Origin: Anaerolineae bacterium
Lineage (GTDB): Bacteria; Chloroflexota; Anaerolineae; Promineifilales; Promineifilaceae
NCBI GenBank assembly: GCA_023954475.1
Contig: JAMLHW010000002.1
Location: 372,001 to 436,000, forward strand
Direction: 5' to 3'
Length of the DNA: 64,000 nt
In this document: positions 48,661 to 60,900 of the stretch, one piece after another
Layout of the letters: each line of letters begins with the position of its first letter
Position numbering within the stretch: position 1 is the stretch's first letter
Position numbers and translations under genes: made by a program
The notes under the pieces: generated by a model
Told to the model about the DNA's origin: nothing
Seen by the model: only the letters and a program-made list of their open reading frames with translations
Database searches by the model: none

Positions 48661-51600
48661 TTACTCTATGGCGGCGAGATTGGTATAGCTTTCCCAACGC
48701 TCTTCGACATCACCTTTTGCTAGTGCCAACAGCCGGGCAGCAGCCTCAGGATTACTTTGCAACAACATGCGATAGCGCCCTTCGCGATAAATGTAATCCT
48801 CCAGCTTGACTTGCGGTTTGCGCCGCGAATCGAGGCTGAATGGGTTCTTTTCCTCTAAAGCCAAATCAGGATTGTAGCGATAGAGCGGCCAATAACCACT
48901 TTCTACAGCAGCCTTTTGTTGCTCCAGGCCGAATTTCATATCGTAGCCATGAGCAATGCAATGGCTGTAGGCAATGATCAGCGATGGGCCATCATATGCT
49001 TCTGCTTCCTGAAGGACGCGAATGGTATGCGCATCATTGGCGCCAAAGGCGATCCGGGCGACATAGATGTTGCCGTAGCTAATTGCCAACAGGCCGAGGT
49101 CTTTGCGGCGCGTCGATTTTCCGGCGGCAGCAAATTTGGCGACAGCGGCTCGTGGTGTGGCTTTCGACATCTGACCACCCGTATTGGAGTAAACTTCGGT
49201 ATCCAGTACGAGGACGTTGACATTGCGCCCAGAGGCAAGCACGTGATCGAGGCCACCATAGCCGATGTCATATGCCCAGCCGTCGCCACCGACGATCCAG
49301 ACGCTTTTCTTGACCAGTACATCGGCCATGCTTTTGAGATTACTGAGATCATGTGCCATTTCGGCCGAACCGTTTGCCTGCAACAACTCGTCCAAACGCG
49401 TTTTCAATTGTGCGACGCGATCGCGTTGGCGACCGATAGCCGCGTCATCGATCTGGTCCGCAAACAGCAATGCATCGACCAATTGCACACCGATCACTTC
49501 CCGGTGCTGACGGAGCAAATTCGTTGCAGCTTCAATACGCTGATCGAGTGCTACGCGCATCCCCATACCAAATTCGGCATTGTCCTCAAAAAGCGAATTC
49601 GACCATGCCGGACCGCGACCGTCTGCATTTTGCGACCACGGGGTCGTCGGCAGGTTGCCACCATAAATCGACGAGCAGCCGGTTGCATTGGCGATGATAG
49701 CGCGGTCGCCAAACAGGCGGCTCATCAAGCCCAGATATGGCGTCTCACCACAGCCGGCGCAGGCACCCGAGAACTCAAACAACGGATCGAGTAACTGTGA
49801 GTATTTGACCTGATTGAGCGCCAACTGGCTGCGATCCATTTCCGGTAACGTCAGGAAATAATCCCAGTTTTCGGCTTCCTGCTGGCGCAGCGGGGCTTGC
49901 GGTGCCATGTTGATCGCCTTGAATTTCGGCTGCTTCTTGTTTTTGACCGGGCAAACTTCAACACACAAGGTACAACCCGTGCAATCTTCCGGTGCAACTT
50001 GCAAGCTGAACTGCATGTCCTTGAATTCTTTGTACCGAGCCGGGACAGATTTGAATGTCTCAGGAGCAGGTTCGGCCGAATCGGGATCGAACAGCTTCAT
50101 GCGAATGACCTGATGCGGACACACCAGCACACATTTACCGCATTGAATGCAAATATCCTCATCCCAAACGGGAATCTCCTGCGCGATATTGCGTTTTTCA
50201 TACTTCGTCGTCCCGGTCGGATAGGTGCCGTCAGCCGGCATGGCACTTACCGGCAAAGAATCGCCCACACGCTCGATCATACGTGCCGTCACCGATTGGA
50301 CAAACTCAGGAGCATACGCGGGAACCGCGGGCACGCGTTCAAACATGCTCGTCACAGTTTGTGGCACTGTCACCTCGTGCAAGTGGGCAACCGCAGCATC
50401 GACTGCCGCGTTGTTCATGTCGACAACCGCCTGACCGCGTTTGCTATACGATTTCACAATAGCCATTTTGATGCTCTCAATGGCATCCTTGCGGCTGAGT
50501 AACGGCTTGCCGGTAACCTGCTCCATCAAGGCAAAGAAACACGTCTGCATGATGGTATTGATGCGACGACCCAACCGAACTTCAGCCGCCAAAGCGTAGG
50601 CATCGACGACGTAAAAACGCAACTGCTTGTCGATAATGGTTTCCTGAACGCTGCGCGGCAGGTAATCCCAAACCGTATCGGCATCGTATGGGCTGTTCAG
50701 TAGAAAAGTTGCTCCAGGCTGAGCTAAGCGCAACACATCATAACGCTCAAGGAAATTGAACTGATGGCACGCCACAAAATTGGCGCGCTCGATTTGATAG
50801 GTCGATGTAATCTTGCGAGGACCAAACCGCAAATGTGATACCGTTACCGCACCTGCTTTCTTGGAATCGTAGACAAAATGACCCTGCGCAGAATTGCCTG
50901 TATTTTCACCGATGATTTTGATAGAGTTTTTATTTGCGCCAACTGTACCGTCAGAACCGAGTCCATAGAACACAGCGCGCACGACATCGTCATCTTCGGT
51001 TGAAAATGCCTCATCATATGCAATGCTTGAGTGTGTTACATCATCAATGATGCCGACTGTAAAGTGATTTTTGGGTTTATCGGCCGAAAGCCCATCAAAA
51101 ATGCCCTTGATCATCGCCGGCGTGAATTCTTTCGATGAAAGACCATAGCGACCACCGACAATTTTCGGCAAATGGGCAAATGGCGCGTCACCGTTCGCCC
51201 ACTGCTCCATAACCGCTGATACAACGTCGAGATAGAGCGGTTCACCGGCCGAACCTGGCTCTTTGGTGCGGTCGAGAACCGCAATCTTCTCAACGGTGGC
51301 CGGAAATGCGTTGACGCACGCAGCCATATCAAACGGCCGATACAGCCTTACAAATACCGCTCCGACCTTCTCTCCCCGCTCTACGAGATAATGGACGGTC
51401 TCATTGACGGCACCGGTTCCTGAACCCATCAAGACAACCACGCGCTCTGCATCTGGCGCACCGACATAATCAAAGAGATGGTATTGACGACCGGTCAGTG
51501 CAGCAAATTTGTCCATTGCTCCTTGCACGATTCCAGGCGCAGCATCGTAGAATGGATTGACTGTCTCGCGAGCCTGGAAGAACACATCGGGGTTTTGCGC

Positions 51601-52254
51601 CGTACCGCGCAGCACGGGATGATCCGGCGACAGACCACGTTGACGATGCGCAAAAACCAATTCATCATTGATCATGGCGCGAATCGTCTCATCGTCGATA
51701 GCCGCAATTTTATTGATTTCGTGGGATGTTCTAAACCCGTCAAAGAAATGAATAAATGGAAGGCGCGCTTCCAACGTGGCTGCTTGCGCGATCAATGCCA
51801 TGTCATGCACTTGCTGCACCGAACTGGACGCCAGCAAGCCAAAACCGGTGTTGCGAGCAGCCATCACGTCACTGTGGTCACCGAAAATGGACAATGCCTG
51901 AGCGGCAACAGAACGCGCGGCAACGTGAAAGACAGTTGAAGTCAATTCACCGGCAATTTTGTACATGTTGGGGATCATCAACAGTAATCCCTGAGACGCG
52001 GTAAACGTGGTCGTTAACGCGCCAGTTTGCAGAGCACCATGAACGGCACCGGCAGCACCGCCTTCGGCCTGCATCTCAACTACCATTGGTACTGATCCCC
52101 AGATATTGGGGTCACCATGCGCAGACCACTGGTCGGCTAACTCGCCCATTGGGGACGATGGGGTAATGGGATAGATGGCGATGACTTCATTGACTTTGTG
52201 GGCAATTCGCGCTGCGGCTTCGTTGCCGTCGATTGTGATCATCTGGGTTGTCAT
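48661..52254 (-). CDS. nifJ: Pyruvate:ferredoxin (flavodoxin) oxidoreductase NifJ
   Basis: 1197-residue single-chain PFOR, the usual length. Order of domains: domain I ([27 protein letters not shown]), the gamma-like domain with [22 protein letters not shown] near residue 430, two-cluster ferredoxin domain near residue 690-770 ([33 protein letters not shown]), and the TPP domain ([79 protein letters not shown]). It oxidises pyruvate to acetyl-CoA with reduction of ferredoxin or flavodoxin. It is divergent from the Rrf2 gene, with four or five TGAC-N4-GTCA-like sites in the 352-base gap. Confidence 0.95.
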
Positions 52255-52537: not shown

Positions 52538-52606
52538 TGTCAAATGTAACGCAGTGCGGCGTAAAGTTGAGTTTGTCGGTCAACAATGGTTACTTTGAGA
52601 GGGTAT

Positions 52607-53062
52607 GTGTTGCAGATCAGCCGAAAAACCGACTACGCCGTACGCATCATGATTGAATTGGGCGCAAGCGGCAACGAGGAACGTGTACCAGCCAAACTTG
52701 TTTCCCGGCGTACCGGCGTTCCCAAGTCATTTCTCTATAAAATTATGGCCGATCTGGTAAGAGCTGGTTTGGCTCGCACGTATGCCGGCGCAACCGGCGG
52801 TATTTCGTTGGCAAAACCAGCCCGAGAAATCAACATGCGCCACATCATTGAAGCGATTGATGGTCCCATCTGTTTCAATCTCTGCCTCATCAAACCGGGG
52901 GAGTGCCCACGAGACAAGGTTTGTCCGGCACACGGTTTTTGGGCTGACTTGCAGACCAATGTTATTGCGCAACTGGAAGCGGCAACGCTAGACACGTTAG
53001 TCGCTGAAGGTGAATTGTTGAAGCGCGGTCAAATACGTGCACCAATCGAGTTTCACGGGTAA
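52607..53062 (+). CDS. Rrf2-family transcriptional regulator with possible Fe-S site
   Basis: Rrf2 protein of about 151 residues, likely starting at GTG 52607 or TTG 52610, giving the family-typical LQISRKTDYAVRIMIELG; TTGAGAGGG lies just upstream. An ATG at 52586 would add seven residues and has no Shine-Dalgarno site. The winged helix covers residues 1-75 (PAKLVSRRTGVPKSFLYKIMADLVRAGLARTYAGATGGISLAKP). Then CFNLCLIKPGECPRDKVCPAHGFW holds four cysteines in the position used by IscR/NsrR/RsrR-type regulators to hold an iron-sulfur cluster. It may sense oxygen, NO or redox state and act on the adjacent TGAC-N4-GTCA sites. Confidence 0.85.
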   Translation: MLQISRKTDYAVRIMIELGASGNEERVPAKLVSRRTGVPKSFLYKIMADLVRAGLARTYAGATGGISLAKPAREINMRHIIEAIDGPICFNLCLIKPGECPRDKVCPAHGFWADLQTNVIAQLEAATLDTLVAEGELLKRGQIRAPIEFHG

Positions 53063-53084: not shown

Positions 53085-53810
53085 GTGACTACGGTAACTG
53101 AAGCCAAGCCATCACAGCCCGGTCAGCGGCGTTTACTACCGCGCTGGGCCTGGTTTTATAGTCCGCTTGTGCTAGTCGCGAGTGCAATTCTAGCCTTTAA
53201 CATTTTCCAACCGATCACCGTTCTGCCACGCATCACCCTTTCTCCAGGATTTGCTCTGAAAAACCAGGAACAGATCACGATCACGAGCGAGGATCGGCGC
53301 GGTCAGTTGACGTTGTTCAGCTTCAGTTACTCGAATTGCGAAGATTGCAAGCAAACTCCGGCGCAAATTGATGCCATTCGCACGGCGCTACGTGAACGCT
53401 ATTCGGCCGATATCGGCCTCGACATTGCCACAATTTCCCTCGATCCAGAACGCGACACACCACAAAATCTCGGCACCAGCATTGCGCCTTCACAATCGGA
53501 CAATCCCATCGGCTGGGAATGGTTGACCTCCGAATCAAACCGGGTGCGCCACGTAGTAGGAGGTGGCTTTGGACTTTTTTACAAGGCTACCGAGCCAGAC
53601 GGTGACGGAGATTACGACATCCGGTTTGAACCGCGCTATGTTCTCGTCGATCGGCTGGGAATCATGCGGGCGATTTATCACACAGCAACACCCGATGTCG
53701 ACCTTCTCGAACGCGACATCAACTTTCTGCTCAACGAAGAACAAAACAGCAAAGGCGTTGCCAAAATTGGCTACGAAGCGGCACATCTTTTCCTGTGTTA
53801 CCCACGCTGA
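53085..53810 (+). CDS. SCO1/SenC-like protein lacking the usual copper ligands
   Basis: 241 residues with one N-terminal membrane helix (WFYSPLVLVASAILAFNIF) and a thioredoxin-fold SCO domain (TLFSFSYSNCEDCKQTPAQIDAI, ATISLDPERDTPQNLG, FEPRYVLVDRLGIMRAIYH). Normal SCO proteins have C-x3-C-P and a histidine after the second strand; here the cysteines are C-x2-C (CEDC) and the histidine site reads R (YVLVDR). So copper transfer may be lost or changed, and a thiol or electron role is possible. The GTG start follows the Rrf2 gene by 22 bases. The gene opens the ba3 oxidase operon. Confidence 0.75.
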   Translation: MTTVTEAKPSQPGQRRLLPRWAWFYSPLVLVASAILAFNIFQPITVLPRITLSPGFALKNQEQITITSEDRRGQLTLFSFSYSNCEDCKQTPAQIDAIRTALRERYSADIGLDIATISLDPERDTPQNLGTSIAPSQSDNPIGWEWLTSESNRVRHVVGGGFGLFYKATEPDGDGDYDIRFEPRYVLVDRLGIMRAIYHTATPDVDLLERDINFLLNEEQNSKGVAKIGYEAAHLFLCYPR

Positions 53811-53827
53811 GAACAACGACACCGATC

Positions 53828-54511
53828 ATGACATCTGTCACTGAAACACCAACCAAAGTTGAAAACAGCACAAAAAGAGCGCCTCGCAGCCGAGCAACTA
53901 TTGCCATATGGGCCGTTCTGGGCATTACGCTGGGAATATTGCTCGCTTATTTCGCTGTCCGTCTGGCATCCGGTCAGCCGCTTATCGGCCCACCCCGCTT
54001 CAACGGCATCGTCATGCAATCGCCACAGCCCATGCCCAATTTCACACTGACGGCGCATACTGGGGAAAAAGTCAGTCTTAATGATTATCGCGACAAGGTG
54101 GTGTTGCTCTACTTCGGCTACACTTTTTGCCCCGACGTTTGTCCGGCTACGATGTGGGAACTGTCAGAAGCTATCGGCCGATTGTCTCCAAAGCAGCAGG
54201 ATCAGGTGCAGGTGCTGATGATTTCGGTCGATCCGGAACGCGACACAACAGAAAAACTGGCGGATTATGTTGCGCATTTCAACCCGGCATTTGTCGGAAT
54301 GACCGGCACAGAGGACGAGATTCTTTCAGCGACGACGCCGTTCGGCATTTATTATGAAAAACACGACGGTTCGGCCGAATCAGGCTATCTGATTGATCAC
54401 ACGGCCAGCGTTACCGTCCTCGACAAAGACGGCTACATGCGGCTGATTTATCCGTTCAATACACCGGCGGAGGCTATTTCGGCCGATTTGATCCATCTCA
54501 TCCGCCAATAA
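53828..54511 (+). CDS. SCO1/SenC copper chaperone for cytochrome oxidase
   Basis: 227 residues: an N-terminal membrane anchor (IAIWAVLGITLGILLAYFAV), then the SCO domain with copper ligands intact, YFGYTFCPDVCPATMWELSEAI (C-x3-C-P) and GYLIDHTASVTVLD (histidine). It delivers copper to the CuA centre of the subunit II encoded downstream. The ATG at 53828 is chosen; it lies 17 bases after the previous stop. It is a paralogue of the gene upstream. Confidence 0.9.
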   Translation: MTSVTETPTKVENSTKRAPRSRATIAIWAVLGITLGILLAYFAVRLASGQPLIGPPRFNGIVMQSPQPMPNFTLTAHTGEKVSLNDYRDKVVLLYFGYTFCPDVCPATMWELSEAIGRLSPKQQDQVQVLMISVDPERDTTEKLADYVAHFNPAFVGMTGTEDEILSATTPFGIYYEKHDGSAESGYLIDHTASVTVLDKDGYMRLIYPFNTPAEAISADLIHLIRQ

Positions 54512-54725: not shown

Positions 54726-55217
54726 ATGCACATTGATCGTACTGAAAGAACCTACATGATCATCGCCGGTGCGCTGATCGCCGTTTTCTTCGGATTAGTA
54801 GTCGTCAGCAGCCTGGCTTATGGCATCCAGGTGCCGGCACCGGAAGCTCGTGTCGATCCCCAAACGGTCGCCACGCCGGGCAACTCGCCGTGGGGCGATC
54901 CGATTGACGAGCGTGTGCGCGAATTAGCGCCGGGTCAGTATGAAGCATTTATCCTGGCTCAAACCTGGGTCTTTCTGCCCAATGTCATCGAAGTGCCGGT
55001 CGGTTCAACCGTGACATTCCAGGTAACGAGCAAAGACGTTCAACACGGCTTCAACTTAAGCGGCACGAATATCAACATGATGATCATTCCCGGTCAGGTT
55101 TCCAAACTGACCGCCACGTTTAATGAACCGGGTGAATACGCATTCATCTGCAATGAATATTGCGGTATCGGCCATCAGACCATGTTCGGCCGACTCATCG
55201 TAACAGACGAAGGATAG
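54726..55217 (+). CDS. ba3-type cytochrome c oxidase subunit II (CuA)
   Basis: 163 residues with one N-terminal membrane helix (YMIIAGALIAVFFGLVVVSSLAYG) and a periplasmic cupredoxin domain. CuA ligands are visible: the histidine of DVQHGFNLSG and CNEYCGIGHQTMFGRL (two cysteines, glutamate carbonyl position, histidine, methionine). The single helix, instead of two, is the ba3/B-type pattern and agrees with the separate IIa subunit upstream. It receives electrons from cytochrome c and hands them to heme b in subunit I. Confidence 0.93.
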   Translation: MHIDRTERTYMIIAGALIAVFFGLVVVSSLAYGIQVPAPEARVDPQTVATPGNSPWGDPIDERVRELAPGQYEAFILAQTWVFLPNVIEVPVGSTVTFQVTSKDVQHGFNLSGTNINMMIIPGQVSKLTATFNEPGEYAFICNEYCGIGHQTMFGRLIVTDEG

Positions 55218-55220
55218 CAA

Positions 55221-56138
55221 ATGCAGGCGACTGAAACGACACTGCACGAGCTAAATACAACACACCCGCCGCAATCGTTGTGGAAGACGATTGTCGTTCT
55301 CTTCAAGCTGCGCGTTGTCTCCTTACTGGTGCTAGCTGCGTTTGGAGGTGCTGCGCTCGGCGCAATGGCCGGCAGAGGCGCATCGAGTTGGGCGTTGCTG
55401 CTGCTGGCTGTCGTCGGTACATTGGCTGCAGCCGGCGCTTCGGCAATCAATCAATATTTGGAGCGCGACCGCGATGCACGCATGAGTCGTACAGCGTCTC
55501 GTCCGCTGGCAACGGGTCAAATCGGCCGACCCGATGCGGTACTATGGATTGGTGTGGGCATGGTCATCTCGGCCACCGTACTTTCTGCGGTGTTCAATCT
55601 GGCACTGGCATTCTGGATTTTAATGGGAACGTTGATTTACGTACTCGTCTACACCGTCTGGCTCAAGCCGCGCACAACATCCAACATCGTCATCGGTGGT
55701 GCAGCAGGCAGTTGTGCAGTCCTCAGTGGTGGCGCAGCAATGGGCGCCTGGACAGATCCCGGCGTTTTGATTCTCGCCGCACTGGTGTTTGTCTGGACAC
55801 CTGTCCATTTCTGGGCTCTGGCACTTGCCTATCGCAACGACTACATAAAAGCCGACTATCCGATGTTACCGGCACGTGTCTCACCCGCCAAAGCGGCGCA
55901 GCGCACAGCACTTTACACCATTCTCACCGCACTATGTGGCATTGCCCTTGGCTTATGGCCACAAATTGATCCCATTTTCCTTACCCCTGTCGGAATAGCG
56001 ACTATTTTCCTGATCACACGCACCTGGCAGTTGGTTGCAAAGCCCGAAACATGGGCCGCCCTCAAACTCTTCCACTTTTCAAATCTGTATTTAGCCCTCG
56101 TGCTCGTTGTGAGCATGTTCGCCCTACTGTGGAGATAA
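55221..56138 (+). CDS. ctaB: Protoheme IX farnesyltransferase (heme O synthase)
   Basis: 305-residue membrane prenyltransferase with about nine helices. The characteristic motif NQYLERDRDARMSRTASRPLATGQ (two Asp-rich groups with R) lies near residue 78, and FVWTPVHFWALALAYRNDYIKADYPMLP near residue 205. It makes heme O for the oxidase. It overlaps neither neighbour but sits 3 bases after subunit II and 3 bases before subunit I, so the operon is tightly packed. Confidence 0.93.
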   Translation: MQATETTLHELNTTHPPQSLWKTIVVLFKLRVVSLLVLAAFGGAALGAMAGRGASSWALLLLAVVGTLAAAGASAINQYLERDRDARMSRTASRPLATGQIGRPDAVLWIGVGMVISATVLSAVFNLALAFWILMGTLIYVLVYTVWLKPRTTSNIVIGGAAGSCAVLSGGAAMGAWTDPGVLILAALVFVWTPVHFWALALAYRNDYIKADYPMLPARVSPAKAAQRTALYTILTALCGIALGLWPQIDPIFLTPVGIATIFLITRTWQLVAKPETWAALKLFHFSNLYLALVLVVSMFALLWR

Positions 56139-56141
56139 ATT

Positions 56142-57776
56142 ATGTACGCACGCGAAAATAAAATCGCCGGCTGGAGCCTCGCCGTTGCCATGATCGCCCT
56201 CTTTATTGGCGGATCGATGGGACCGCTGCAAAAGCTCAATTATGCTGGGGTCAATCTATACGACACACTGAACGACATTGGCCTTGCCAGCTACTACCAG
56301 GGACTGACACTGCATGCCGTACTGAATGCGCTGGTCTGGACAACATTTTTCATCGTCGGCTTCTTCACGTTTGCACTGGTGCGCAGCCTGAACATGCCGC
56401 TCAAAATGCCCTGGCTCAACGTGGCAGCACTCATCGTCATGGTCATCGGGCTGATCATGGCAGCCATACCGATTTTGCTCAATCTGGCGACGGTTCTATT
56501 CACATTTTACCCGCCCCTGCAGGCCAATACGTTCTTTTATCTCGGCTTAACCCTGGTCGTGATTGGGTCGTGGATGCACGGGTATGGCTACTACCTTACC
56601 TATTGGGAATGGCGCAAGCAAAACAAAGGTACACGGACACCGTTTATTGCGCTGGCGATCATCATCACGATGGTTATGTGGCAAATTGCGACTCTCGGCG
56701 TAGCCATCGAGATCATCTTTCTCATTATCCCGTGGTCACTGGGTTGGGTTGAAGGCACAGACCCTACACTGGCACGCACCTTCTTCTGGTTCTTCGGCCA
56801 TCCGCTAGTCTACTTCTGGTTACTGCCGGCGTACGTTTCATGGTACGCCATGTTACCCAAGCAAGCTGGCGGCAAGTTGTTCAGCGAAGGGCTGGCACGG
56901 CTGGTGTTTTGGCTATTTCTGGCATTGTCGGTGCCAGTTGGTTTGCACCATCAATATTTGGACCCTGGTGTACCAGCCGGCTGGAAAGCTGTACACGCGA
57001 TGATCACCTTCGCGCTTTTCTTTCCCAGCATGGTCACAGCATTCACTGTGGTGGCCTCATTGGAAGTAGGTGGACGCGCCCGTGGCGGCACGGGTTTGCT
57101 GGGGTGGATACGCGCTCTGCCCTGGGGTGACCCTTCGGTGACGGCACAATTGCTGGCGATGATTTTGTTTGTCTTTGGCGGCATCGGCGGCCTGACCAAT
57201 GCCTCCTATAATCTGAATCTCGTTATTCACAATACCTCATGGGTTCCCGGCCACTTCCATCTCACAGTCGGCTCGGCCGTGACACTGACGTTCATGGGCA
57301 TTGCTTACTGGCTTGTACCGGCCATTTCCGGCAAGAACCTGTGGAGCCGCAAGGTTGCCCTATGGCAGGGATGGACCTGGTTTGTGGGCATGATCTTGAT
57401 GTCGAACGGGTTGCACATTCTCGGTCTCAACTTCAGTATGCCGCGACGCACCATGATTGGCGCTGCCCCGTATGCTGATCCGGCTTGGAACCCGTTGCTG
57501 TTTGAAGCGATGATTGGTGGTCTAATTCTGGGTGTCAGCGGCTTGCTGTTCTATGCAAACATGCTTGGGACTGTTCTGTCAAGAAAGAAAGCCGAAACAC
57601 CAGTCGAAATGCCTGTGGCAGAGTCCATGGATGCAACGCCCGCACCGGCGTGGTTGGATTCATGGAAACCCTGGATGGCTTTGACTATCGTGTTGATTCT
57701 GATTGCTTACGGTCCGATTCTAGTGGATTTGATTAGCTCGGCGCAATTTACGTCACCGGGCTTCACTCCGTGGTAA
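56142..57776 (+). CDS. ba3-type cytochrome c oxidase subunit I
   Basis: 544-residue catalytic subunit with about thirteen helices. Heme and CuB ligands: LTLHAVLNALVWT (low-spin heme His), FWFFGHPLVYFWLLPAYVSWY (CuB His and the cross-linked Tyr), GLHHQYLDPG (His pair), and VPGHFHLTVGSAV (high-spin and low-spin His). The K-channel pattern and short length fit the B-type (ba3) rather than the aa3 type. It reduces oxygen to water and pumps protons. The gene lies directly after ctaB and its stop overlaps the region before the cytochrome c gene. Confidence 0.93.
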   Translation: MYARENKIAGWSLAVAMIALFIGGSMGPLQKLNYAGVNLYDTLNDIGLASYYQGLTLHAVLNALVWTTFFIVGFFTFALVRSLNMPLKMPWLNVAALIVMVIGLIMAAIPILLNLATVLFTFYPPLQANTFFYLGLTLVVIGSWMHGYGYYLTYWEWRKQNKGTRTPFIALAIIITMVMWQIATLGVAIEIIFLIIPWSLGWVEGTDPTLARTFFWFFGHPLVYFWLLPAYVSWYAMLPKQAGGKLFSEGLARLVFWLFLALSVPVGLHHQYLDPGVPAGWKAVHAMITFALFFPSMVTAFTVVASLEVGGRARGGTGLLGWIRALPWGDPSVTAQLLAMILFVFGGIGGLTNASYNLNLVIHNTSWVPGHFHLTVGSAVTLTFMGIAYWLVPAISGKNLWSRKVALWQGWTWFVGMILMSNGLHILGLNFSMPRRTMIGAAPYADPAWNPLLFEAMIGGLILGVSGLLFYANMLGTVLSRKKAETPVEMPVAESMDATPAPAWLDSWKPWMALTIVLILIAYGPILVDLISSAQFTSPGFTPW

Positions 57777-57862
57777 AATACAGGGGTTTCGGGAGCCAAA
57801 TTGGTTCCACATCAACGGCAGATTGCACAAACCAATCTGCACTAAATGGGAGCATTGTAACA

Positions 57863-58300
57863 ATGAAGAAAACATTCCTTTCACTTCTCGTCTTGGTTCT
57901 GGCCTTAGTGATGGTGGCCTGTGGTGGTGGCGATGATTCGTCATCTTCGTCCTCGTCCGGTGGTGGTGAAGAAGTCGCTGCCACGGGCGGTGATGCCGCA
58001 GCCGGCGAAGAGTTGTACAAGACGGCTGTGCTGCCGAGCGGCACGCTGGGCTGTAGTTCTTGCCACTCGCTGGAACCAGACACCATCATCGTCGGCCCAT
58101 CGCATGCCGGGTTAGCCAATCGCGCCGGTGAGTATGAAGCGGGTGTTTCGGCCGAACAGTATCTGCGCACATCCATCATGGACCCCAACGACCATCTTGT
58201 CGAGGGGTTCAGCGAAGGTGTTATGCCACAGACCTACGCCGAAGAGCTGACGCCAGAGCAAATCGACAATCTGGTCGCCTATCTGTTAACACTTAAATAA
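57863..58300 (+). CDS. Lipoprotein cytochrome c, monoheme
   Basis: 145 residues. Lipobox VMVACGGG gives a lipidated N-terminus; a Ser/Gly-rich linker follows, then the heme-binding motif CSSCH (GTLGCSSCHSLEPDT) and an axial-methionine candidate in GVMPQTYAEEL. LTPEQIDNLVAYLLTLK is the C-terminal helix typical of class I c-type cytochromes. It is most likely the membrane-bound electron donor to the ba3 oxidase encoded just upstream. ATG 57863 gives a clean signal peptide; an earlier start would not. Confidence 0.9.
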   Translation: MKKTFLSLLVLVLALVMVACGGGDDSSSSSSSGGGEEVAATGGDAAAGEELYKTAVLPSGTLGCSSCHSLEPDTIIVGPSHAGLANRAGEYEAGVSAEQYLRTSIMDPNDHLVEGFSEGVMPQTYAEELTPEQIDNLVAYLLTLK

Positions 58301-58402: not shown

Positions 58403-58786
58403 ATGGATGCTCAAGCTGTAGCTGAAAAGCGCATTCGCGATGCCTGGGTCATGGGTATCGCAGCGGGAATCATCTCAATTCTCCTGACTATGATTTACGC
58501 AACAGGAGCAAGTTTTGCTCACGTTGACCCGTGGGCCTGGATCGAAATCGTTGTGATTTTTGTGTTGAGTTTCGGCATTTATCGCAAAAGTCGGCTCAGT
58601 GCCATTCTGCTATTGCTGTTTTATGTCGGCAGTCGCGTCATTTTCTGGATTGACGAGCAGACACTGATCGGCATTCCAATGGCGCTAGTTTTCGGGTACT
58701 TTTTTCTACAAGGCGTACGCGGTACGATTGATATCCATCGCCTGCACGACGAAAGTGAGTTTGGATCTAAAGAACCGAGTTTCTGA
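58403..58786 (+). CDS. Four-helix membrane protein of unknown function
   Basis: 127 residues with four hydrophobic segments (MGIAAGIISILLTMIYATG, WIEIVVIFVLSFGIY, AILLLLFYVGSRVIFWI, IGIPMALVFGYFFLQGVRG). ACGGAGGAAATCACA precedes the ATG. I know no function; the pattern is shared by small hypothetical proteins in many phyla. It precedes the cytochrome b fusion by 32 bases and may be co-transcribed with it. Confidence 0.75.
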   Translation: MDAQAVAEKRIRDAWVMGIAAGIISILLTMIYATGASFAHVDPWAWIEIVVIFVLSFGIYRKSRLSAILLLLFYVGSRVIFWIDEQTLIGIPMALVFGYFFLQGVRGTIDIHRLHDESEFGSKEPSF

Positions 58787-58818: not shown

Positions 58819-60900
58819 ATGTCCGTTGCCGAAAAACCGACCGATTCGGCCGAATCCCGCACCCATGCTCCCCACTCCATCGACGAATGGATCATTCCCC
58901 GTAGCCGTTGGGCCATCCTGCTCGAAAAGCTGGCCCTCACGATTGAGCATCCGGTTAACCGGCTAATCGGTAACTATCAGCTCAACCCGTTCTATCACAC
59001 CGGCACAATTGCCGTTTTATTGCTGGCTATCGTCGGCTTAACCGGCATCTATTTGTGGCTGTTCTTCCAGTTTGGGTTTGAAGAATCATACGCCGCCACC
59101 GTGCGCATGGAAAATCAATTGATTGCCCGCACCATGCGTGCCATACACCGCTACGCATCAGGGGCGCTGATCGTCACCACATTGCTGCACGGTTACCGCA
59201 TTTTGTTTATGCAGCGATTCAAAGGACCGCGCTGGCTAGCTTGGGTAACAGGCGTGTTCATGACATTTCTGTTGTGGCTGGCCGGTGTTACCGGTTACTG
59301 GCTGATTTGGGATCAGCGCGCCCAGTTGATTACAGAAGGGTTTGTCGATATTTTGCAACGGTGGACGACATGGGCACCGGCGTTCATGGTGAGCATGGTT
59401 TCGGCCGAAACCAATGACCGATCGTGGCTGCCGCTACTAATCATTTTCATCGCTCACCTCGCCCTATTCATTATTTGCGTTGTCCTAACCTGGCTACACA
59501 TCCGACGTCTGAGCCGTCCGCGCTGGATACCCGACACACATTGGATAGTGATCGCTGGTATTGTCCTGCTCGTCATTTCGCTGCTATTTCCGGCCGGAAA
59601 TTTGCCCGCCGCCGATTTCACGCAACAACCAACCTCCGTCGACCTCGATCCGCTCTTCCTTTTCTACTTTCCGATCAACAAGACATGGTGGAGTTCTGCG
59701 CTGTGGATCACCCTGACCATCGTGACAGTGTGGGCAGTGGCTTTGCCGTGGCTGCGCCGCAAAAATGCTCCACAACCACTGCCTGTCATCGTTACCGACG
59801 ACTTGTGTACCGGCTGTACCAAATGTGCCAACGATTGCCCATATGACGCCATCGTTATGGTTGAGCGTCCCGCCGAACACCGCCACAAGTTGCTCGCAGT
59901 CGCCGATGCTTCAAAATGCGTTTCCTGCGGCATTTGCATTGGCTCATGCGACGATTATGCGATTACGCTGGGCGATGTGCCGCCACAACTGGTTTGGACC
60001 ACCGTGACGGAACGGCTCGAAAAAGCAAAACAAGCAGCACCGGCAGGCGGCGTCAAGGTCATTTTCACCTGCGAACGACACGCCGTGCAGGGTGCTAGAC
60101 CCTACCTAAACGGGAAATCCCCCAAAACCGATCCGGCAGTCGAAGTGATTGCACTTCCCTGTGCCGGTGTTGTGCTGCCCAGTGTCATGCAGCGCACATT
60201 GGAAGCCGGCGCAGCAGAGGTCGAAGTGGTTGGCTGCCCACCACACGACTGCGCCAATCGCGAGGGCAATATGTGGGAGGAGCAGCGGTTGACACACGAG
60301 CGCGTGCCACGCTTGCGCAAAGCATTTGACCACAAACCCATCACGGCTGCCTGGATTGCGCCCAACGAATTTGAGCGCTCGATTCCAGCTACTGCTGCTA
60401 CAATTACAGATGATTCGGCCGAACCGGATTATCTCTCCGCTCGTTTTTTCCAATGGCTCAACTGGCGCAATTTCGTCATCGGTTTCGCCTTGCTAGCTGC
60501 CGTACTGGTCGCCCAGGTGTGGCTGACAGGTCTCAGTTTCACGCCCGTTCCCCAGACAGAGGCATTGGTACAAATTGTGCTGGACGCACCCGCTGTGCAA
60601 CTGGCCGATGACATGATTCTGCAACTGACAGTAGACGGGGAAGTTGTGCTCGATGAACGGGTAGATGCAGGCACGGCCGATCCGCGTTTTACTACACTTC
60701 CATTGGCAGCTGGCACACATCACATCCGCCTGGCTTATAGCGATCCGGACGGCAGTTTGAGCTACACGATTTTTGAGGACACCGTTTCGGCCGATGCCGG
60801 AATGACTATTCAGGTCAACAATCCCAAACAGCCCGATCCACTGTGCCCCGCACGCGCCTGCACGGACGCCCGCAACCAAATCACCCTCGGTGCACAATAA
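58819..60900 (+). CDS. Cytochrome b6-type / two-cluster ferredoxin / MvhD-like fusion protein
   Basis: 693-residue membrane-bound redox protein, with domains in this order. Residues 25-260 form a diheme cytochrome b core: HRYASGALIVTTLLH and HLALFIICVVLTWLH each give His-x13-His. After another helix, residues 330-390 carry two [4Fe-4S] motifs (CTGCTKCANDCP, CVSCGICIGSC). Residues 415-500 match MvhD (hydrogenase delta subunit): FTCERHAVQG, LPCAGVVLPS, GCPPHDCANREGN. A membrane helix near residue 555 and a C-terminal beta domain follow. A quinone-to-ferredoxin or heterodisulfide-reductase-like electron shuttle is suggested. I know of no exact described counterpart. Confidence 0.82.
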   Translation: MSVAEKPTDSAESRTHAPHSIDEWIIPRSRWAILLEKLALTIEHPVNRLIGNYQLNPFYHTGTIAVLLLAIVGLTGIYLWLFFQFGFEESYAATVRMENQLIARTMRAIHRYASGALIVTTLLHGYRILFMQRFKGPRWLAWVTGVFMTFLLWLAGVTGYWLIWDQRAQLITEGFVDILQRWTTWAPAFMVSMVSAETNDRSWLPLLIIFIAHLALFIICVVLTWLHIRRLSRPRWIPDTHWIVIAGIVLLVISLLFPAGNLPAADFTQQPTSVDLDPLFLFYFPINKTWWSSALWITLTIVTVWAVALPWLRRKNAPQPLPVIVTDDLCTGCTKCANDCPYDAIVMVERPAEHRHKLLAVADASKCVSCGICIGSCDDYAITLGDVPPQLVWTTVTERLEKAKQAAPAGGVKVIFTCERHAVQGARPYLNGKSPKTDPAVEVIALPCAGVVLPSVMQRTLEAGAAEVEVVGCPPHDCANREGNMWEEQRLTHERVPRLRKAFDHKPITAAWIAPNEFERSIPATAATITDDSAEPDYLSARFFQWLNWRNFVIGFALLAAVLVAQVWLTGLSFTPVPQTEALVQIVLDAPAVQLADDMILQLTVDGEVVLDERVDAGTADPRFTTLPLAAGTHHIRLAYSDPDGSLSYTIFEDTVSADAGMTIQVNNPKQPDPLCPARACTDARNQITLGAQ

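Follow-up and report, generated by a model that had tools for sequence, protein, structure and literature searches.

The described systems closest to the protein reported here are the cytochrome b of bc1 and b6f complexes, the C-terminal half of HdrA2, the Rieske/cytochrome b complexes of the anammox bacterium Kuenenia, and one protein, RME88945.1. Helices A-F, the four heme-ligand histidines and the GYxLxWDQ segment are common to bc1/b6f cytochrome b and the family, but the family requires no Rieske partner, lacks the PEWY glutamate and runs from helix F into a predicted cytoplasmic Fe-S arm; the carriers examined additionally hold a true bc or an ACIII-like complex. The order ferredoxin-MvhD is the same as in the C-terminal half of HdrA2, and the ferredoxin superposes on the HdrA C-terminus, whereas the flavin domain of HdrA is missing, a cytochrome b is attached instead, and a His stands for the second Cys of the CxxC motif. 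The Kuenenia complexes, which were proposed to make NAD(P)H (PMC12954380), likewise connect a cytochrome b with Fe-S clusters in the cytoplasm and c hemes on the outside, but they include a Rieske protein and keep the Fe-S/flavin part in a subunit of its own, whereas the family protein is one chain without flavin and without Rieske. RME88945.1 is listed in Table A3 of PMC8756737 as cytochrome b6, Fe-S (DMSOR beta-like), FlpD and C1 cytochrome c in one ORF, which is the domain set of the family; the entry is one row in an appendix table on a cytochrome domain, with no family, operon or function given.

The protein studied here is encoded in a 64,000-nucleotide stretch of DNA from an Anaerolineae bacterium (the window), by the last gene of an oxidase operon. 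The ORF, on the forward strand, starts with ATG, stops with TAA and encodes 693 aa, with boundaries exactly as first noted. The features of the operon and of the protein are as follows.

52586-53062, forward strand: Rrf2 regulator, first gene of the operon (Pfam)
53085-53810, forward strand: second SCO-like protein (Pfam)
53795-54511, forward strand: SCO1/SenC copper chaperone (Pfam)
54726-55217, forward strand: oxidase subunit II with CuA motif, sequence CNEYCGIGHQTM (Pfam)
55221-56138, forward strand: UbiA-family prenyltransferase, taken to be CtaB (heme O synthase) from Pfam and its position in the oxidase operon
56142-57776, forward strand: ba3-type heme-copper oxidase subunit I with HPLVY active site (E 9e-140 to Thermus ba3)
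57770-58300, forward strand: gene for a cytochrome c lipoprotein, probably starting near 57863 (Pfam; homologue of the C-terminal domain in fused relatives)
58403-58786, forward strand: small membrane protein encoded between the cytochrome c and fusion genes, without family match
58819-60900, forward strand: cytochrome b - 2[4Fe-4S] ferredoxin - MvhD - transmembrane helix - beta-domain protein, 693 aa (AlphaFold2 model and Pfam)
58969-59778, forward strand: cytochrome b core, residues 51-320, helices A-F (Pfam PF00033; Z 21 to bc1 cytochrome b)
58996-58998, forward strand: H60, aligned with Cys35 of cytochrome b6 (ungapped phmmer alignment)
59146-59499, forward strand: region containing the heme-ligand histidines H110, H124, H213 and H227, all four invariant (71/71 sequences)
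59791-59958, forward strand: 2[4Fe-4S] ferredoxin domain, residues 325-380, with eight invariant Cys (Pfam and structure match)
60052-60378, forward strand: MvhD/FlpD domain, residues 412-520, with CxxH replacing the CxxC of true MvhD (Pfam, alignment and structure match)
60463-60525, forward strand: additional transmembrane helix, residues 549-569 (AlphaFold2 model)
60532-60819, forward strand: C-terminal beta-sandwich domain, residues 572-667, predicted outside (AlphaFold2 model)

Pfam matches, all above cut-off, were found for cytochrome b (residues 54-229), a 4Fe-4S dicluster domain (325-380) and FlpD/MvhD (414-520), and a full-length AlphaFold2 model built with 71 homologues reached a pLDDT of 90.4 and a pTM of 0.90. 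Residues 51-320 superposed on bc1-complex cytochrome b at Z 21 over 260 residues and 3.5 A, indicating that helices E and F are present besides helices A-D, which contain both heme sites, and that the core extends beyond a four-helix heme core. The ferredoxin-MvhD part, modelled separately (pLDDT 90.9), matched the MvhD of 5ODH (chain D)/5ODC with Z 10.5 over 115 residues (3.7 A, 23% identity) and the HdrA C-terminal ferredoxin of 7BKB with Z 11.3 over 73 residues (2.1 A). Both sequence, with a PF02662 score of 45.9 bits (cut-off 22.3), and fold thus place the domain in MvhD/FlpD. The top NCBIfam match was HdrA2 (NF040770), which covers residues 319-520 and only the C-terminal part of that model; its 71.5 bits against a cut-off of 1100 bits do not indicate a full-length HdrA with bifurcating FAD. 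By the topology of bc1, the Fe-S arm would be cytoplasmic and the beta domain would lie outside the cell. In the fused relatives described below, this beta-sandwich domain stands before a cytochrome c domain. The initial annotation, which had read the chain as cytochrome b, ferredoxin and MvhD with an added membrane helix and an external C-terminal domain, is therefore borne out by the domain order, the model and the invariant ligands, the external location being a prediction, and the MvhD fold it asked to see in a predicted structure is present.

Among 71 aligned members, the invariant residues include His 110, 124, 213 and 227, the eight ferredoxin Cys, and Cys 418, 448, 473 and 478 of the MvhD domain. 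This invariance of the heme, ferredoxin and MvhD ligands argues that the domain combination is no product of chance. His421, found in 69 of the 71, occupies the site of the second Cys in the MvhD CxxC motif (the fifth Cys; a putative [2Fe-2S] domain). Residue 60 is His in 64 members and Tyr in six; its counterpart, Cys35 of cytochrome b6, is the ligand and attachment site of heme c_n. The b6-like GYxLxWDQ segment is retained in the cytochrome b core. As for the PEWY-type glutamate of the quinol-oxidation (ef) loop, neither Glu nor Asp was found at positions 278-285 in any of the 71 sequences, the nearest acidic residue being D277, just upstream. With helices E and F and the GYxLxWDQ segment kept, the protein could still have a quinone site.

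The window operon runs in the order Rrf2, two SCO proteins, subunit II, the UbiA-type protein (CtaB), ba3 subunit I, cytochrome c, the small membrane protein and the fusion gene, and it contains no Rieske gene. The small membrane protein has four helices; it matched nothing in Pfam or NCBIfam, and no relative turned up in the other loci. The position of the fusion gene next to an oxidase operon, as described in the initial annotation, is correct and also conserved: among the 69 loci having at least 2.5 kb of upstream DNA, oxidase subunit I was found upstream in 60, within 1.5 kb in 55 of them and at about 6 kb in the other five, where a cluster for a GltD-like protein, b6, subunit IV, Rieske and triheme cytochrome c intervenes. 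The gene is thus a component of a ba3-type (B-family) oxidase operon, its genomic association with subunits I and II being conserved. In the close clade, all oxidases carry HPxVY in the alignment, indicating O2 reductases. A distant clade (L044-L051), at roughly 30-37% identity, lies mostly beside HPAQQ enzymes that have a CuA subunit; a copper P-type ATPase is often present as well. A Gln at the Tyr site of HPxVY is listed for eNOR (PMC8756737), and by this motif the HPAQQ enzymes would be eNOR-like NO reductases. The common theme of the two clades is thus the feeding of a CuA reductase. Within the distant clade, L049-L051 have lost the cluster Cys of the MvhD domain while keeping those of the ferredoxin, so that their MvhD domain is probably structural only.

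The cytochrome c of the operon provides a second link. Among the family genes located directly downstream of subunit I, 39 encode a fused C-terminal cytochrome c, none of them with a separate cytochrome c gene in that slot, and all 16 unfused ones have one there (16/16). Two loci remain, L122, with masked bases at the domain site, and L131, which is very distant. The cytochrome c of the window matched the fused domains with a median of 81.5 bits (best 98.6), scoring them as high as many separate ones. On the family tree, fusion status switches only about three times, so that the many loci are not independent observations and the independent events are few. The fused-or-separate pattern is nevertheless a strong Rosetta-stone link between the protein's outer end and the oxidase's cytochrome c. 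Fusion, fission and neighbourhood are evidence of partnership, not of direction.

On these grounds the protein may be a subunit dedicated to supplying electrons to a CuA-type heme-copper reductase, in this case the ba3 oxidase, a reading to which we give about an even chance. On the cytoplasmic side, a soluble low-potential partner, either ferredoxin or an NAD(P)H flavoprotein, would reduce the clusters of the MvhD and ferredoxin domains. Electrons would then pass to the heme b near the cytoplasmic face and on to the heme b near the outer face, from there to the cytochrome c held by the outer C-terminal domain (fused, or encoded separately upstream), and finally through CuA to O2. Such a conduit would operate without a Rieske protein and without Hdr/Mvh proteins. 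Sequence and gene order back each cofactor and the outer-end partner, whereas we infer this direction of flow and the cytoplasmic donor, and quinone may act as donor, as acceptor or not at all. No gene consistently adjacent across loci pointed to a specific cytoplasmic donor. A wire leading from low-potential donors directly to cytochrome c would waste energy, which argues for a quinone step somewhere. The initial annotation had suggested electron transfer between quinone and a soluble low-potential partner; the soluble cytoplasmic partner fits the predicted cytoplasmic side of the Fe-S clusters, but quinone as the other end is not supported as stated, with the outer end tied to cytochrome c and the CuA oxidase and the PEWY glutamate absent.

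Quinone would have a larger part if the protein were a ferredoxin (or NAD(P)H):menaquinone oxidoreductase, whose oxidase neighbour reflected only shared regulation for aerobic growth. Quinone binding is common among cytochrome b folds, and Rrf2-type regulators were found upstream in 16 of the 52 loci tested (the window and 15 of 51 others). Moreover, a gene for pyruvate:ferredoxin oxidoreductase (PFOR; 48661-52254, reverse strand) adjoins the window operon divergently and is a possible source of reduced ferredoxin. The fusion of the operon cytochrome c in most relatives, however, ties the outer side to cytochrome c and not just to quinone, and we consider this alternative improbable.

The main rival to the conduit is a quinol-splitting role, in which quinol would be oxidized and its electrons divided, one going out to cytochrome c and the oxidase and one passing inward to ferredoxin or NAD(P)+ through heme b and the Fe-S clusters, so that O2 reduction would drive the supply of low-potential electrons. 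A comparable scheme has been proposed for the anammox Rieske/cytochrome b complexes (PMC12954380). In its favour are 14 loci that encode both a GltD-like flavoprotein and a Rieske protein, mostly clustered with b6, subunit IV and a triheme cytochrome c (L036:9740-14980, L038, L067, L068, L070, L071, L074-L076, L078, L079, L096, L115 and L129). The identities of GltD, b6, subunit IV and Rieske in the clusters were confirmed, and in at least five of the 14 loci the fusion gene is the final gene of the same operon. In Chloroflexota, such clusters, with a five-TM subunit IV, adjoin ba3 oxidase operons. This GltD-b6-IV-Rieske-c3 set resembles the Kuenenia complexes with their proposed NAD(P)H production, and a cytoplasmic Fe-S arm beside heme b is the layout that the Kuenenia proposal requires (PMC12954380). 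The family protein itself, however, contains neither a Rieske domain nor a PEWY glutamate, with nothing acidic at 278-285, three carriers have no Rieske protein at all, and the window genome lacks a GltD-b6 cluster, the one further cytochrome b in it being of the canonical bc type. Quinol splitting therefore appears fairly unlikely.

The same genomes show how the family relates to Complex III. The protein has the diheme cytochrome b fold with four His ligands but lacks the PEWY glutamate, and a Rieske partner was found neither in the window operon nor in the genomes G079, G123 and G142. In G079, G123 and G142 the family protein is the sole cytochrome b and no Rieske protein was detected; the three genomes are congeneric and 87-97% complete, and count as one lineage and not as three independent cases. 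All three encode an ACIII-like cluster, which can do the quinol-cytochrome c work there. In the window genome, the other cytochrome b belongs to a canonical Rieske/cytochrome bc cluster. The family as a replacement of Complex III was ruled out by this cluster and by the ACIII-like clusters of the Rieske-less carriers. At least in G079, G123 and G142, the protein is thus neither an Hdr subunit in disguise nor a substitute for Complex III.

A further alternative is Hdr/Mvh chemistry, in which an MvhAG hydrogenase or HdrABC would dock on the MvhD domain, so connecting the membrane with H2 or thiol-disulfide chemistry. The MvhD fold is genuine, and a complete cluster for HdrC, HdrB, HdrA, MvhD, MvhG, MvhA and a maturation protease, with a group 3c-like hydrogenase, was found on another contig of the window genome (C7; L137:6674-13851). 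The initial annotation's statement that the fusion gene is not with HdrA or Mvh genes holds at the window locus, this cluster lying elsewhere in the genome. Co-occurrence was examined with the window genome's own HdrA as query, the HdrB-type CCG domain (PF02754) being too unspecific. HdrA was detected in nine of the 27 genomes that carry the family but in 82 of the 123 without it, and in seven of the 18 genomes of the close clade but in 84 of the remaining 132, so the co-occurrence with HdrABC-like genes that the initial annotation proposed to look for gave no positive link. In the nearest relative (G114), neither HdrA nor MvhA was found. Association with HdrA and MvhAG, FdhAB or similar proteins was thus supported neither by adjacency nor by co-occurrence, and the MvhD domain has diverged, with CxxH for CxxC. 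Already weakened by the co-occurrence test, this explanation is highly improbable.

The family is represented by 80 named GTDB loci in Chloroflexota, Acidimicrobiia/Actinomycetota, Rokubacteria, Nitrospinota and SAR324, and it also occurs across the class; a search of viral contigs for relatives gave no match. A search of the open-licence literature for the domain combination retrieved no description of the family beyond Table A3 of PMC8756737. The family therefore appears undescribed apart from this one appendix-table entry in a 2022 paper, and its novelty is probable. Of the possibility raised in the initial annotation, that the protein belongs to an already characterised widespread family, the wide distribution is correct, and characterisation is apparently missing from the open-licence literature. 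More broadly, and only tentatively, at somewhat below even probability, the family may constitute a new class of respiratory complex, a ferredoxin (or NAD(P)H):cytochrome c oxidoreductase of Hdr origin that has no Rieske protein and serves specifically CuA heme-copper reductases in Chloroflexota, Acidimicrobiia and others, or a reverse-flow form of it, in which O2 or NO reduction would drive low-potential electrons inward. If so, widespread and mostly uncultured bacteria would have a cytochrome c entry point that bypasses or complements Complex III, assembled from parts known in anaerobic Hdr enzymes. This would change the genome-based prediction of electron-transport chains in these phyla, and would offer a test bed for a cytochrome b exchanging electrons with low-potential cytoplasmic carriers. 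Such genes are easily taken for a plain cytochrome b or for a subunit of a hydrogenase. In L123, a 1325-aa ORF considered as an oxidase-subunit-I fusion proved to be an out-of-frame extension.
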